Shown here in pieces: positions 3,635-38,895 of a stretch of 64,000 nt of DNA (the first letter of the stretch is position 1; every line of letters begins with the position of its first letter). Position numbers and translations under genes: made by a program. Source of the stretch: Sulfitobacter albidus (GTDB lineage Bacteria > Pseudomonadota > Alphaproteobacteria > Rhodobacterales > Rhodobacteraceae); the NCBI RefSeq assembly GCF_018200035.1, contig NZ_CP073581.1, positions 1,794,501-1,858,500 on the forward strand, given 5' to 3'. The notes beneath the pieces are model-generated. The model searched no databases, was not told the origin of the DNA, and saw nothing but the letters and a program-made list of their open reading frames with translations.

Positions 3635-5512
3635 ATGAGCACCAATTCCGACAATCCCGCCGACGCGTTCAAAAAGGCGCTCGCCGAAGCGTCCAAGGTC
3701 ATGGCCAACGATCCCGATCTGACGGTCAGCTATTCGGTGGACCCCTCGGGGCTGACCGGCGACGCGATGCGCCTGCCGCAGGTGACCCGCCGGATGACGC
3801 GCGATGAGGTGATGCTGGCGCGCGGCACGGCGGATGCGCTGGCGCTCAACCGGCGCTACCACAACGGCCAGACCCACGCGCGCTATCAGCCGCAGGGCGA
3901 AATGGCGCGCGATCTGTATGAGGCGATGGAAACCGCGCGCTGCGAGGCGATGGGCGCGCGCGACATGCCCGGCACGGCCGGCAACATCGACGCCAAGATC
4001 AAACACGAGGCCCTGCGCCGGGGCTACGATCAGGTGACGCAGGCGGCGGATGTGCCGCTGGCCACGGCCGCCGGCTATCTGGTGCGCCATCTGGCGACGG
4101 GGCGCGAGATGCCCGCCGGGGCGGCCAACGTGATGGAGCTGTGGCGCGGCTATATCGAAGAGCAATGCGGCGGCACGCTCGAAGATCTGGGCGATGTGCT
4201 GGAGGATCAGTCGGCCTTTGCCAAATTCGCCCGCCAGATGATCACCGATCTGGGCTACGCCGATCAACTGGGCGACGATCCCGACGGCACTGACGAAGAG
4301 CAGGAAGATCAGGCCGAAGAAGGCGCCGAAGAGGAGCAGGATCCCGACAGCACTGGCGACGACGACCAGCAGGACGAGGACGCCGACGCCTCCCCCGAGC
4401 AATCCCAGGAGGACCAGCAGGACGCGAGCCAGGCGCAGGTCTCGATGGAGGATATGGCAGATCAGGAGCTGGGCGAGGAGGCCGAGATGCCCGAGGGCGA
4501 GGCCCCGATGGAGCCGCCGGCCCCTGCCCCGATCTCTGACGCCGATCCCAATTATACCGTCTACATGACCAAGCACGACGAGGTCGTGGGCGCCGAGGAG
4601 CTGGCCGAACCCGTGGAGCTGGAGCGCCTGCGCGCCTATCTCGACCAGCAGCTTGAGCCGCTCAAGGGCGCGGTCAGCCGTCTGGCCAACAAGCTGCAGC
4701 GTCGCTTGCAGGCGCAGCAGAACCGCAGCTGGGAGTTCGATCTGGAGGAAGGCACGCTGGACGCCGGGCGTCTCGCCCGCGTGGTGGCCAACCCCACCAC
4801 GCCGCTGAGCTTCAAGGTCGAGAAAGACACCGAATTCCGCGACACCGTGGTGACGCTGCTGCTGGATAACTCCGGCTCGATGCGCGGGCGCCCGATTTCC
4901 ATCGCCGCGATCTGCGCCGACGTTCTGGCCCGCACGTTGGAGCGGTGCAACGTCAAGGTCGAGATCCTGGGCTTTACCACCAAGGCGTGGAAGGGCGGTC
5001 AGGCGCGTGAGGCGTGGCTCAACGACGGGCGCCCCGCAGCCCCCGGACGGCTCAATGATCTGCGCCACATCATCTATAAATCCGCGGACGCGCCGTGGCG
5101 GCGCACGCGACCCAATCTGGGTCTGATGATGAAAGAGGGGCTGCTGAAGGAAAACATCGACGGCGAGGCGCTGGAATGGGCGCACCGGCGCATGATGGCG
5201 CGCCACGAGGCGCGCAAGATCCTGATGGTGATCTCGGACGGCGCGCCCGTGGACGACAGCACCCTGTCGGTGAACCCCGCGAACTACCTCGAAAAGCATC
5301 TGCGCGACGTGATCGCCATGGTCGAGAAAAAGCGGGCGGTAGAGCTGTTGGCGATCGGGATCGGCCACGATGTGACGCGCTACTACGACCGGGCGGTGAC
5401 GATCACGGATGTGGAGCAATTGGCCGGGGCGATGACCGAGCAGCTTGCGTCGCTGTTCGACAGCGATCCACGCGCGCGGGCGCGGGTCATGGGGATGAAG
5501 CGGGCGAGCTGA
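3635..5512 (+). CDS. cobT: Aerobic cobaltochelatase subunit CobT
   Basis: CobT partners CobS in the ATP-driven part of cobalt insertion during aerobic B12 synthesis. The 625-residue protein has the family layout: an N-terminal domain, a long central acidic hinge (about 213-299, rich in D, E and Q), and a C-terminal von Willebrand A-like domain with the metal-ion-dependent adhesion motif DNSGS at 411-415. Length is normal. The ATG at 3635 follows a GAGG-like site. About 280 bp upstream are free of genes, so cobT probably has its own promoter despite being near cobS. Confidence 0.95.
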
Positions 5513-5618
5513 CTTTGCTGGCCGCAGCGCGGGCTGTGCGGTGGTCCTTTAGGTATTTTTGAAAGGGTGCAGGGGCGTGTCGGGGAAAACCTGCACCGCA
5601 GCACCGGAGGAGAGCGGG

Positions 5619-35964: not shown

Positions 35965-36735
35965 TTGTCCAGCGCACTCAAACTGATCAGACATGCCCTC
36001 GGATTGCTCACGCAGCATCCGTTGCAGACGGTGCGGGTCGTGGCGCCCGGCCTCTTGCTGATGGTGGGCGTCGCGATCCTCGCGCTTGTCTTCGCGCCGG
36101 GGCTGCTGACACTGGACGCCGACAATCCCGACGTCAGCGCCCTGCCCGGCGGCGCGCTGGTGCTGATCGCGGCTTTTGTGCTGAGCTATGCGCTGATGGC
36201 CGTGCTTTGGCACCGCCATACCCTCCGCGCCAACCGCGCCCCCAAACCGATGAGCACGATGCTGATCGCGGGGTATCTGTGGCGCGTCAGCCTGCTGGCG
36301 GTGGTACAACTGCTCACCAGTCTCGCGCTGGTGCTGCCGCTCTCGGTCGCGGCGGCGAGCAATGCGGGCGGGGCCGCACCGCCGACGCTCCCCTCGATCC
36401 TGATCACGACCTTCGTGCTGCAACTCGTGGTGCTCTGGGTCTCGCTGCGGCTCAGCCTGATCCTGCCGGCCGCAGCGCTCGGCTACCCGATCCGCATGGT
36501 GCAAAGCTGGTATCTGACAGCGCGGCTGACCCGCACGCTCTGGGGCGTTTCGGCGGTGCTGGCGCTGATAAATACGCTGGCCACGGCAAGCCTCAACAGC
36601 TTTTGGGCGCCCACGGCCGGGCGCACGCTGGTTGTCGGGCTGCCGATCTACATCCTCGAAGGGCTGCTGATCTTCTCGATCCTCACCACCCTCTATGCAC
36701 AGCTGATCCAGAAAAAGCGGCTCGCCGGGCTTTAG
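35965..36735 (+). CDS. Multi-pass membrane protein, unknown function
   Basis: This 256-residue hydrophobic protein has about six predicted membrane helices (around 24-46, 67-88, 106-130, 146-170, 190-210 and 225-250) and a basic, aromatic loop HRHTLRANRAPKPM. No catalytic motif is visible and the family is not recognised. The only in-frame start giving the full N-terminus is a TTG at 35965 with an AAGG upstream; this is uncertain. It is divergent from mraZ and converges on mrp with a four-base overlap. Confidence 0.75.
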   Translation: MSSALKLIRHALGLLTQHPLQTVRVVAPGLLLMVGVAILALVFAPGLLTLDADNPDVSALPGGALVLIAAFVLSYALMAVLWHRHTLRANRAPKPMSTMLIAGYLWRVSLLAVVQLLTSLALVLPLSVAAASNAGGAAPPTLPSILITTFVLQLVVLWVSLRLSLILPAAALGYPIRMVQSWYLTARLTRTLWGVSAVLALINTLATASLNSFWAPTAGRTLVVGLPIYILEGLLIFSILTTLYAQLIQKKRLAGL

Positions 36736-37805
36736 GCCATCCCGCCCTTGATCAACCCTTCGGCCATGCGCGCATAGGCCTGCGCCATCGGCCCGTCCCC
36801 GGCGGCCACGGGTGTGCCGCCATCGCCCGCCAGCCGCGTTTCCAGATCGATCGGCAGATGCCCCAGCAGCGGCACGCCCATGCGCTCCGCCTCCGCCGCG
36901 ACGCCGCCCTGGCCAAAGATCTCGTGCTGGGCCCCGCAATCGGGGCAGACAAACATCGACATATTCTCGATCAGCCCCAGCACGGGTGTCTTGAGCGTGG
37001 CGAACATATCGAGCGCCTTGCGCGCATCGATCAGCGCCACGTCCTGCGGGGTCGAGACGACGATGGCGCCGGTCAGCTCCGATTTGGTGCACAGCGTCAG
37101 CTGCACGTCGCCGGTGCCGGGGGGCAGATCAACAAGCAGCACGTCCAGCTCGCCCCATTCCACCTGCCCCAGCATCTGTTGCAGCGCGCCCATCAGCATC
37201 GGCCCACGCCAGACAACGGCCTTGCCCTCTTCCATCATGAAACCGATCGACATCAGCGTGACGCCATGCGCCTTGAGCGGAATGATCGTCTTCCCGTCCG
37301 GGGAGCCGGGGCGCTTGTTGATCCCCATCATGCGCGGCTGGCTCGGCCCGTAGATGTCGGCATCCAGCAGACCGACCTTGCGCCCCTGCTTGGCCAAGGC
37401 GACGGCAAGGTTTGACGACACGGTGGATTTGCCCACGCCGCCCTTGCCCGACCCGATGGCGATGATGCGCTGCACCCCGCTGGGTTTGGTCGGGCCCGCC
37501 TGCGGCTTGGGGTGCCCGCCAATCTTCAGCGACGGCGGGGCGGCGGGTTTGGCCGCAGGGCCGTGCGCCGTCAGCGCCACATGCGCCTTTGCCACGCCGG
37601 GCAGCTCGGTGACGATACGCTCGGCGGCATCGCGGATCGCGCCCATTTGCGCGGCGACCTCCGCCGACGGCGCCTCGATCACGAACCGCACCACATCGCC
37701 CTCGACGGTGATCGCGCTGACCATGTCATGATCGATCAGGCTGCGCCCGTCTGGCAGCGCAATGCGTGACAAGGCGTCTGTGATATCGGATTTGCTCGGC
37801 GGCAT
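36732..37805 (-). CDS. mrp: Mrp/ApbC family iron-sulfur cluster carrier ATPase
   Basis: This 357-residue cytosolic P-loop protein carries or transfers Fe-S clusters. It has an N-terminal MIP18-like domain (1-80), a Pro/Ala linker, the deviant Walker A GSGKGGVGKST (118-128), and switch motifs DADIYGPSQP and DLPPGTGD. The CPDC cysteine pair that binds a bridging cluster in the dimer lies near residue 280. Length and motifs are normal. It is apparently monocistronic. Confidence 0.94.
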   Translation of the reverse strand: MPPSKSDITDALSRIALPDGRSLIDHDMVSAITVEGDVVRFVIEAPSAEVAAQMGAIRDAAERIVTELPGVAKAHVALTAHGPAAKPAAPPSLKIGGHPKPQAGPTKPSGVQRIIAIGSGKGGVGKSTVSSNLAVALAKQGRKVGLLDADIYGPSQPRMMGINKRPGSPDGKTIIPLKAHGVTLMSIGFMMEEGKAVVWRGPMLMGALQQMLGQVEWGELDVLLVDLPPGTGDVQLTLCTKSELTGAIVVSTPQDVALIDARKALDMFATLKTPVLGLIENMSMFVCPDCGAQHEIFGQGGVAAEAERMGVPLLGHLPIDLETRLAGDGGTPVAAGDGPMAQAYARMAEGLIKGGMA

Positions 37806-37959
37806 AGAAGTCTCCTGTCTGTTATGCCTTCACATCGCAGATTAACCGCGATGCGCAAGCCCGTGCGCCAAAATGCCCGGTCGGAAATAGGTCTCCGCGA
37901 CGACAGGTCAACAATACAACCCATGCGTTTGCTGCATGGCAGCATTGCAGACAAATTGA

Positions 37960-37989
37960 TTGTGCGCCCGCAGAAACATTGGCTATAGT
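37960..37989 (+). promoter_or_regulatory. Candidate promoter of the first CCUCCUCCC small RNA
   Basis: TTGTGC (37960-37965) and TATAGT (37984-37989) are separated by 18 bases. They sit directly before the hairpin-rich, non-coding stretch that ends in a terminator at 38117. It looks like a housekeeping-type promoter. In R. sphaeroides related sRNAs use heat-shock-type sigma factors, so the sigma factor here is open. Confidence 0.45.
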
Positions 37990-37995
37990 CTGTGT

Positions 37996-38117
37996 ATGGA
38001 AACGATCCTCCCGAGAGTTTTCTTAAAATAGTCAGAACCCCTCACCTCCTCCCGAGGGCGACTGAACGCTAGGGCGACAACATCTTCCTCCTCCCTGATG
38101 TTGTCGCCCATTTTTTT
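37996..38117 (+). ncRNA. CCUCCUCCC-loop small RNA (cuckoo RNA type), upstream unit
   Basis: Two hairpins each present the exact loop motif CCTCCTCCC. The first has stem CCCTC/GAGGG (38039-38043, 38054-38058) with the motif at 38045-38053. The second has a perfect 13-bp stem GGGCGACAACATC/GATGTTGTCGCCC (38072-38084, 38097-38109), with the motif at 38087-38095, followed by ATTTTTTT. The latter is also the terminator. Anti-Shine-Dalgarno CCUCCUCCC loops define the CcsR/cuckoo RNAs of Rhodobacter and relatives, found beside DUF1127 genes as here. No protein is encoded. The 5' end is inferred from the promoter-like sequence. Confidence 0.8.
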
Positions 38118-38298
38118 ACTCCACCCCCTTTCACCCCGGCACGCACCGAAAAATAAGTGACGTAAAGTCATGTAGTTATGCCATCCTCCCCTATGCAATC
38201 GGCGCATACCGGGGTTGTGCATTCGCAGGTTGTGGGCGCCCCCCGAACCCCTATTTCTAGTCCCAAGAGACAGACACACCGATCGAAAGAGAGAGCAA

Positions 38299-38514
38299 AT
38301 GACCTACTACACTGACACCGCCGTTCGCACCGCCGCCCCTAGCCGCATCGCAGCATTCTGGGACGCCATCACACTGAAACTGCGCCAGCGCCGCGCCTAC
38401 CGCCGCACCTTTAACGAGCTGTCGATGATGACAGCCCGCGATCTGGCCGATCTGGGCATGAGCCGCGCGGACTTCCGCCGCATCGCCCGCGAAGCGGCAG
38501 AAATGACAACCTAA
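38299..38514 (+). CDS. DUF1127 small protein (CcaF1-like)
   Basis: This 71-residue basic protein has the C-terminal DUF1127 helix-turn region (RTFNELSMMTARDLADLGMSRADFRRIAREAA). In R. sphaeroides a DUF1127 protein encoded just upstream of the CcsR1-4 sRNAs (CcaF1) binds RNA and affects their maturation. The arrangement here, with four CUUCCUCCC-type hairpins directly downstream, is the same. The ATG at 38299 follows a purine-rich GAGAG sequence. Likely co-transcribed with the downstream RNA array; stress induction is inferred from the relatives. Confidence 0.9.
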   Translation: MTYYTDTAVRTAAPSRIAAFWDAITLKLRQRRAYRRTFNELSMMTARDLADLGMSRADFRRIAREAAEMTT

Positions 38515-38522
38515 TTCGAGAT

Positions 38523-38697
38523 ACTGACGGGCCTTTCCCTCCCGATGGGTCCGTCAGTCACGGTGCAGGCCGCGTCCCGCCTCCCCGGAGACCCCTGCGC
38601 CGCATGGATGCCCATCCCCCTCTTCCTCCCGATGTGGGGGATGGCGCAGCCAGATAGAACGGCGGTCCCTTCCTCCCAAGGGGCCGCCGTTTCGTTA
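38523..38697 (+). ncRNA. Four-hairpin CcsR-like small RNA array downstream of DUF1127
   Basis: Four successive stem-loops follow the DUF1127 stop. The first is an 11-bp stem 38523-38533/38548-38558 with loop containing TTCCCTCCC. The second is a 9-bp stem 38561-38569/38594-38602 with CGCCTCCCC in a large loop. The third is a 9-bp stem 38612-38620/38636-38644 with CTTCCTCCC. The fourth is a 12-bp stem 38658-38669/38680-38691 with TTCCTCCC and a T-rich tail that serves as terminator. C-rich anti-Shine-Dalgarno loops repeated four times match the CcsR1-4 organisation. Confidence 0.8.
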
Positions 38698-38895
38698 TTC
38701 CGCCTCCAGCAGATCGCCGGGTTGGCATTCCAGCACCTCGCAGATCCGCGCAAGCGTCTCGAACCGCACGCCCTTGACCTTGCCGGATTTCAACAGGCTG
38801 ATGTTCTGTTCGGTGATGCCCACGGCCTCCGCCAGATCCCTTGATTTCATCTTGCGCTGCGCCAGCATCACGTCGAGCCTGACCACGATCTGCAT
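38695..38895 (-). CDS. XRE-family small transcriptional regulator
   Basis: This 66-residue helix-turn-helix protein is of the YozG-like Cro/C1 type (MKSRDLAEAVGITEQNISLLKSGKVKGVRFETLARICEVL, ending CQPGDLLE). Such proteins commonly pair with DUF2975 membrane proteins. Its ATG overlaps the DUF2975 stop (TGATG). The 3' end abuts the terminator of the DUF1127 sRNA array on the opposite strand, so the two transcripts converge. Confidence 0.9.
   Translation of the reverse strand: MQIVVRLDVMLAQRKMKSRDLAEAVGITEQNISLLKSGKVKGVRFETLARICEVLECQPGDLLEAE

Follow-up and report, generated by a model that had tools for sequence, protein, structure and literature searches.

A cuckoo-type small RNA upstream of a DUF1127 gene in Sulfitobacter albidus, with candidate PhaR-type boxes in its presumed promoter

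The RNA unit and its neighbours

In the window, i.e. the whole 64 kb stretch of DNA analysed here (positions 1,794,501–1,858,500 of a 3.86 Mb genome), a compact RNA unit is flanked by mrp (36732–37805, minus strand; Pfam ParA/NUBPL) and a gene encoding a 71-aa, CcaF1-like DUF1127 protein (38299–38514, plus strand; PF06568, 39.1 bits, cut-off 23.3). Judging by its predicted fold and promoter elements, the plus strand between 37994 and 38118 would encode a compact small RNA (sRNA) of ~120 nt as a self-contained gene, with transcription starting at about 37996. The presumed −35 (TTGTGC, 37960–37965) and −10 (TATAGT, 37984–37989, 18 nt past TTGTGC) elements, both on the plus strand, were read from the sequence. 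A simple consensus promoter scan called nothing at the unit; the −35/−10 reading is backed by the presence of TTGTGC in 20/20 Sulfitobacter loci.

The original prediction described two hairpins with exact CCUCCUCCC loops, located between a promoter-like sequence and a strong terminator. Both main hairpins indeed display CCUCCUCCC: the two exact CCTCCTCCC copies (38045–38053 and 38087–38095, plus strand), the only ones in the window, are unpaired and lie in loops of the predicted fold. This count was rejected as a sign of significance by itself, since 0.67 copies were expected and 11/100 shuffles contained at least two. The fold of 38027–38118 (−35.7 kcal/mol) was far more stable than that of shuffled sequences (−17.1 ± 2.6 kcal/mol; z −7.15), none of 200 folding as well, and together with the stem covariation described below this rules out chance hairpins. 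Hairpin 2 (38032–38065, plus strand) presents the loop ACCUCCUCCC, and hairpin 3 (38072–38117, plus strand) presents UUCCUCCUCCCU before an A and seven U residues. The latter consists of a 13-bp stem and a 12-nt loop (38072–38109), folds at −24.7 kcal/mol (38063–38113) and reads as an intrinsic terminator, which a simple terminator scan missed because its loop limit was 8. A promoter element and a terminator are thus present as predicted, but the second hairpin is itself the terminator stem. The count of two main hairpins also stands, although a third, 5′ hairpin had been overlooked. This weaker hairpin 1 (37998–38022, plus strand) carries the loop motif UCCUCCC, folds by itself much like shuffled sequence (z −0.98, 29/200 as good) and shows CCUCCC in 7 of the 20 Sulfitobacter loci, the other 13 having a different, motif-free 5′ hairpin.

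An 11-codon open reading frame (ATG GAA ACG ... TAG; 37996–38031, plus strand) spans hairpin 1 from the presumed transcription start. It has no upstream Shine-Dalgarno (SD) sequence and is probably a chance frame, as its ATG occurs in just three of the seven loci with this type of hairpin 1; conceivably, it could encode a leaderless peptide. An antisense frame (37983–38279) runs across the conserved hairpins and was for that reason dismissed as spurious.

Downstream of the unit, the DUF1127 gene has a presumed promoter of its own, TTG-N18-CTATTT (38230–38256, plus strand), which was read from the sequence and is RpoH-like by resemblance; CTATTT also occurs in L005, L006 and L014. Past the gene lies an array of about four predicted hairpins with CUCCC or CCUCCC loops (38523–38696, plus strand), resembling CcsR1–4 and giving sub-threshold CcsR1 and ar14 matches at 38603–38695. 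Exact CCUCCUCCC is absent from this array, which holds CCUCCC cores only. These positions bear out the predicted placement of the unit, which precedes DUF1127 and is separate from the downstream array.

Conservation, layout and class of the RNA

Of 60 genomes searched at the DNA level (relatives plus the genome itself; 36 of the genus), 20 contained the unit, all of them Sulfitobacter. DUF1127 lay 3′ of it in every case (19 by pattern, L010 by reading the sequence). To assess covariation, hairpins 2 and 3 from these 20 loci were aligned with MAFFT by sequence alone, the structure tested having been read from the same sequences. Changes on both sides were found at 13 of 22 stem pairs and 91.3% of cells were paired, whilst slid structures paired only 30–58%. 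For four of five covariation measures, 0/500 shuffles scored as high; the fifth, further pair types, was ordinary (145/500 as good). Hairpin 2 contributed most of the double changes (9/10 model pairs; 81% of cells paired), compared with 4/12 pairs in hairpin 3, where 100% of cells paired across 19 distinct sequences. The loop of hairpin 2 was invariant in 20/20 loci, and that of hairpin 3 retained at least CTCCTCCC in 20/20. A later model alignment (A4) was excluded from these counts because it had been fitted to the structure. The original prediction had staked its case on conservation of the paired stems in related genomes, and that conservation is evident.

The 20 Sulfitobacter loci also served to build a covariance model, R1, which matches them by construction. 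The window unit scored 77.3 bits and the downstream array 28.9 bits (38603–38698). Elsewhere in the window, a partial match (18.4 bits, model positions 45–81) occurred on the minus strand at 4355–4391. Across the family to which GTDB assigns Sulfitobacter, R1 matched 243/295 genomes. Among the best 30 R1 loci in the family were stand-alone two-hairpin units whose locus lacked the DUF1127 pattern (L168, L170, L172, L177, L185, L190–L192 and L194). Plasmids gave just partial matches to the DUF1127 gene (two records).

We then compared 80 named DUF1127 loci, with flanks of at most 3 kb; these overlap the family genome set (e.g. L087 with G016) and include two identically scoring contigs from a single strain (L150 and L152). 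R1 matched both upstream and downstream of DUF1127 in 17/17 Sulfitobacter loci. An upstream unit was found in only 1/63 non-Sulfitobacter loci, the matches elsewhere lying downstream of DUF1127. The one case was Aliiruegeria lutimaris (L105), with four upstream R1 matches at 2280–2718 plus downstream ones. The predicted occurrence of such RNAs on both sides of DUF1127 therefore stands as a layout, with the reservation that the downstream array has no exact CCUCCUCCC. In four loci (L107, L108, L123 and L124), an extra, weaker R1 match (32–45 bits) at ~2602–2705 directly precedes the upstream unit, which suggests that in some Sulfitobacter the upstream hairpins of this type number more than two.

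The window RNA is an anti-SD RNA of the known cuckoo/ar14/CcsR kind. In accordance with a broad definition of cuckoo RNAs, it presents invariant CCUCCUCCC in the loops of hairpins whose stems vary in sequence yet remain paired. A covariance-model search for CcsR/cuckoo RNAs, as originally proposed, returned CcsR1 (RF02791; 38.7 bits, E 5.2e−7) and ar14 (RF02344; 37.2 bits, or 41.5 bits for a full-length match at 37987–38112 covering all three hairpins), but these scores lie under the Rfam gathering scores of 65.3 and 58.8, respectively, and membership in either family was rejected. Moreover, ar14 has three full CCUCCUCCC hairpins, whereas hairpin 1 here has CCUCCC only. Of 15 related loci scanned, two stand-alone units passed the ar14 cut-off (L192, 60.0 bits; L185, 59.1 bits). 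A weak third ar14 match in the same genome (L003, G000:C1:2630203–2630327; 22 bits) had neither CCTCCTCCC nor TTCCTCCC on the scanned strand and is probably due to chance.

As far as the partly available reports describe them, two systems come closest. In Sinorhizobium meliloti, the gene for ar14/NfeR1 stands alone behind a conserved promoter stretch and encodes three anti-SD-loop hairpins with variable stems. The window RNA shares the anti-SD loops, variable stems and own gene, but differs in its 5′ loop (CCUCCC only) and in its promoter, which carries PhaR-type boxes where the authors of ar14/NfeR1 tied that RNA to NtrBC. In Rhodobacter sphaeroides, CcsR1–4 are anti-SD hairpin RNAs beside the DUF1127 gene ccaF1 (likewise 71 aa, with an RpoHI/RpoHII promoter), a CIN1 locus being described too, and are processed out of the ccaF1 3′ UTR. 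The downstream array resembles that arrangement. In contrast, the window unit precedes DUF1127 and has a promoter element and a terminator to itself, which supports the original reading of an autonomous cuckoo-type RNA. The RNAs in the available part of a Ruegeria pomeroyi sRNA paper could not be mapped to the window RNA. Overall, the original interpretation is partly supported, and the kind of RNA (cuckoo, ar14/NfeR1, CcsR) is already known.

Paired PhaR-type boxes and their distribution

The promoter of the unit contains two palindromes of the type bound by PhaR, the polyhydroxybutyrate (PHB)-responsive repressor, which did not figure in the original prediction. Both CTGCATGGCAG (box 1; 37932–37942, plus strand, within an extended palindrome TGCTGCATGGCAGCA at 37930–37944) and TTGTGC-N4-GCAG (box 2; here TTGTGC-GCCC-GCAG, 37960–37973, plus strand) overlap the presumed −35 region, box 2 including the presumed −35 element itself. 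Box 1 is identical to the R. sphaeroides PhaR binding site CTGCNNNGCAG, as given in the available part of that study (PMC12542648), and the genome carries phaR (PF07879, 98.2 bits). Box 1 also resembles the boxes before the genome's own phaP (TGCTGCGGTGCAGAA and TGCTGCACTGCAGCA) and the one just 5′ of its phaR (GGCTGCGCTGCAGCA), the phaP boxes being spaced at 26 nt versus 28–29 nt at the sRNA. Box 2 resembles the PhaR-bound site of mmgR, TTGTGCACCGCAGCA, with a spacer one base longer (4 nt vs 3 nt in the published site), a difference that counts against PhaR. According to the accessible portions of the literature, MmgR (ar8) of S. meliloti is a 77-nt, Hfq-dependent sRNA with an anti-SD motif in a loop, which is repressed by PhaR/AniA and limits PHB accumulation. 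It belongs to a different RNA family and is compared here on promoter logic alone; no ar8 match appeared among the Rfam scan results, and Rfam may lack ar8.

A box matrix was derived from 24 boxes in 12 Sulfitobacter phaP promoters, two of the boxes coming from this genome. Twenty-one Sulfitobacter phasin loci were read for this; the 12 with a box pair (one phasin type) were used and the nine without (one cut short) were left out. Across 175,724 scanned positions, some overlapping, box 1 was the window's best match (17.7 bits; phaR promoter box, 16.0), and one other place outside the phaP boxes, TGCCGCGCCGCAGAA in L051–L053, scored 17.8 bits. A lone CTGCNNNGCAG says little (2.57 expected per window; another at 5591), as opposed to the spaced box pair, which never occurred in 100 Markov windows. 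With one mismatch allowed, a naive box-2 pattern gave as many control as real matches (46 vs 45), and the analysis was therefore restricted to the paired, spaced pattern. The first version of this pattern was loose, giving 9 matches vs 1 for the reversed control in this genome, with equal or higher control counts in several others. Seven of the nine (six places) lay in open frames of >150 codons and are presumed coding; the noncoding matches were the phaP and sRNA promoters only.

All 20 Sulfitobacter sRNA promoters contained TTGTGCN4GCAG. An exact CTGCN3GCAG occurred in 18/20 loci, 16 at the standard spacing, and the pair was 28–29 nt apart in 18/20 (16 with exact box 1, variants in L006 and L010), the pattern having taken an overlapping exact box-1 copy 20–21 nt away in L011 and L018. 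In 10 genus genomes lacking a DNA match to the unit, a double-box search located a pair of this type, by pattern alone, in nine; the exception (G004) was 64% complete. A second TTGTGCN3-4GCAG match in the window, at 38215, belongs to a remnant element before DUF1127 (TTGTGC-ATTC-GCAG, 38215–38228, plus strand) with a degenerate box 1. In L018–L023, an intact two-box element is found in the DUF1127 promoter itself, ~215–270 nt past the sRNA's copy in the four genomes for which both were listed, as though through a joint duplication of promoter and hairpins.

The occurrence of the element was not restricted to this genus. In 30 loci picked by the RNA model alone, box 2 was found in 28 and the pair in 23 using a permissive pattern. 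The box-2 misses were L186, whose element is visible in L253 (the same place), and L191, where box 2 is inverted. In the latter, the inverted box (CTGCATCTGCACAA) and a normal box 1 lie ~60–130 nt 5′ of a stand-alone RNA, which makes this locus a natural test of box orientation. Among the 80 named DUF1127 loci, box 1 occurred in 57, box 2 in 68 and neither in five. The pair was present in 45/80, 44 of them at 28–29 nt, compared with 0/394 stretches elsewhere in the same loci; the remaining pair (L128, 15 nt apart) is probably spurious. The pattern GCATTG-N8-16-TTGTGC-N4-GCAG was detected in 169/295 family genomes, mostly as one copy, with no reversed-pattern matches among the family rows listed. 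When 30 of these element loci were read, the element was followed by CCTCCTCCC motifs in 29 (23 with DUF1127 by pattern; the exception was L259), which points to a promoter that cuckoo/DUF1127 loci of the family commonly use rather than one private to the window.

Co-occurrence of the element with phaR says little, as phaR (PF07879) was found in 285/295 family genomes. Its presence across Sulfitobacter was likewise dropped as an uninformative test (34/36 sampled genus genomes, the two misses being 64% and 84% complete). The ten phaR-less family genomes were scrutinised instead. The strict pattern was absent from all six that were at least 89% complete and present in three of the four less complete, whose phaR may be unassembled. 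R1 matched six of the ten (G062, G156, G208, G224, G281 and G322), and the boxes were read in three of these. In two 100% complete genomes that had kept the locus (G062 and G208), neither box was intact, neighbouring CAT-GC and TTGTG letters remaining; in G281 (89% complete, phaR not found), both boxes were intact. Since genomes with phaR, such as G253, can likewise have GCGG in the right-hand half of box 1, more weight falls on the broken box 2, and these variants slightly lower our confidence in the explanation proposed below. Nonetheless, this apparent erosion in two phaR-less genomes favours PhaR. Three further nearly complete genomes (G148, G194 and G339) had neither phaR nor an R1 match; all are small (2.2–2.5 Mb), hence this joint absence may reflect genome reduction.

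The same autonomous anti-SD RNA could instead be controlled by another regulator that recognises these boxes, or mainly by an RpoH-type stress promoter, with PHB uninvolved. The almost exclusive association of the paired boxes with cuckoo/DUF1127 loci (29/30 read), the different phaP spacing (26 nt), the N4 rather than N3 spacer of box 2, the intact boxes of G281 and the RpoHI/RpoHII promoter described for ccaF1-CcsR1–4 all speak for this reading. Against it, box 1 is the published PhaR site and resembles the genome's own phaP and phaR boxes, and neither box is intact in the two complete phaR-less genomes. In addition, TTG and CTATAG, as read from the sequence, are 20 nt apart in the sRNA promoter, more than the 18-nt spacing at DUF1127, and the DNA of the sRNA unit does not suggest a stress promoter. 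We regard control without PHB as unlikely, though deserving of serious attention.

Candidate targets and a possible link to stored carbon

The strong SD sequence complementary to the loops, in the form GGGAGGAG-N4-11-ATG, occurred 18 times in the genome versus once for the reversed control. Several of these matches precede frames of just 2–8 codons, and one lies antisense to the sRNA itself. Ten of the 18 proteins were submitted to Pfam, the other eight being very short or doubtful frames or the sRNA antisense, and nine had matches. These included two DctP-type TRAP binding proteins, one Peripla_BP_6 protein, a carboxyl transferase, an AMP-binding (acyl-CoA-synthetase-like) enzyme and a GlpD-like oxidoreductase, as well as a short-chain dehydrogenase, a MerR regulator and a PhyH protein. 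Predicted loop–mRNA duplexes ranged from −16.9 to −23.3 kcal/mol, figures that stand without a control. The phaP mRNA itself has no GGGAGGAG. By a review's account, of which part was available, the anti-SD loops of NfeR1 silence mRNAs at the ribosome-binding site and act redundantly. By analogy, titration of ribosome-binding sites by the window RNA is plausible, and given the genes with SD matches, a brake on uptake under carbon surplus would be reasonable.

We therefore favour, as probable yet well short of assured, a PhaR-controlled sRNA that is released upon PHB accumulation and blocks the ribosome-binding sites of carbon-uptake mRNAs. PhaR, a repressor that leaves DNA when on PHB granules, would bind the two palindromic promoter sites. 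Under carbon excess, PHB would accumulate and titrate PhaR away, allowing the RNA to be made; its loops would then pair with GGGAGGAG, so that carbon-uptake and acyl-CoA genes would be translated less. The adjacent DUF1127 protein, together with a hairpin array of its own, would make up a second, related transcription unit. Binding by PhaR, repression as the direction of control, the targets and transcription itself are what we infer here.

Two other readings concern what the RNA does. The loops might act as protein bait, with the RNA sequestering the CcaF1-like DUF1127 protein or another RNA-binding protein. Repeated identical loops on variable stems would suit a sponge and CcaF1, in the accessible account, binds RNA, helps mature the CcsR RNAs and is encoded beside them; but the loops match the anti-SD sequence exactly, a review describes NfeR1, whose loops are the same, as silencing its targets through redundant loops, and stand-alone copies have no linked DUF1127, which makes a bait function quite improbable. 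A cis-acting leader or attenuator, with terminating hairpins and read-through into DUF1127, has a precedent in an S. meliloti DUF1127 gene whose control depends on a C-rich uORF leader together with premature termination (PMC12218461) and could draw on the terminator ~180 nt 5′ of the DUF1127 start and the 11-codon frame at the presumed transcription start, but was rejected as the main reading and is very unlikely, since the element is repeated before DUF1127 and intact there in several species, so that the gene appears to have its own promoter, the two-hairpin unit stands alone in the nine loci named above, and the 11-codon frame lacks an SD, with an ATG in 3/7 loci only.

Returning to control by PhaR, what appears to be new, as far as the literature was searched, is the PhaR-type operator together with the two-sided layout as a Sulfitobacter trait. 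No link between PhaR or PHB and cuckoo/CcsR RNAs or DUF1127 was found in that literature, which did not extend to the key cuckoo/CcsR papers. Extended to the whole family, the proposal would make cuckoo RNAs and DUF1127 genes part of a core PhaR regulon, in which PHB-titrated PhaR releases RNAs that lower uptake translation, and which Sulfitobacter has duplicated on both sides of DUF1127; we hold the case for and against this wider version to be evenly balanced.

Cuckoo/CcsR RNAs are widespread in Alphaproteobacteria and, to our knowledge, little is known about their control in this group beyond stress sigma factors. The PhaR-type element, given its occurrence in 169/295 genomes and at cuckoo/DUF1127 loci in 29 of the 30 cases read, offers a simple control signal, namely stored carbon. 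If true, a storage-sensing translational brake couples carbon reserves to uptake. PhaR control of MmgR in rhizobia and the anti-SD action of NfeR1 on transporters would thereby be brought together, and many marine bacteria would be governed by an RNA switch that senses PHB.
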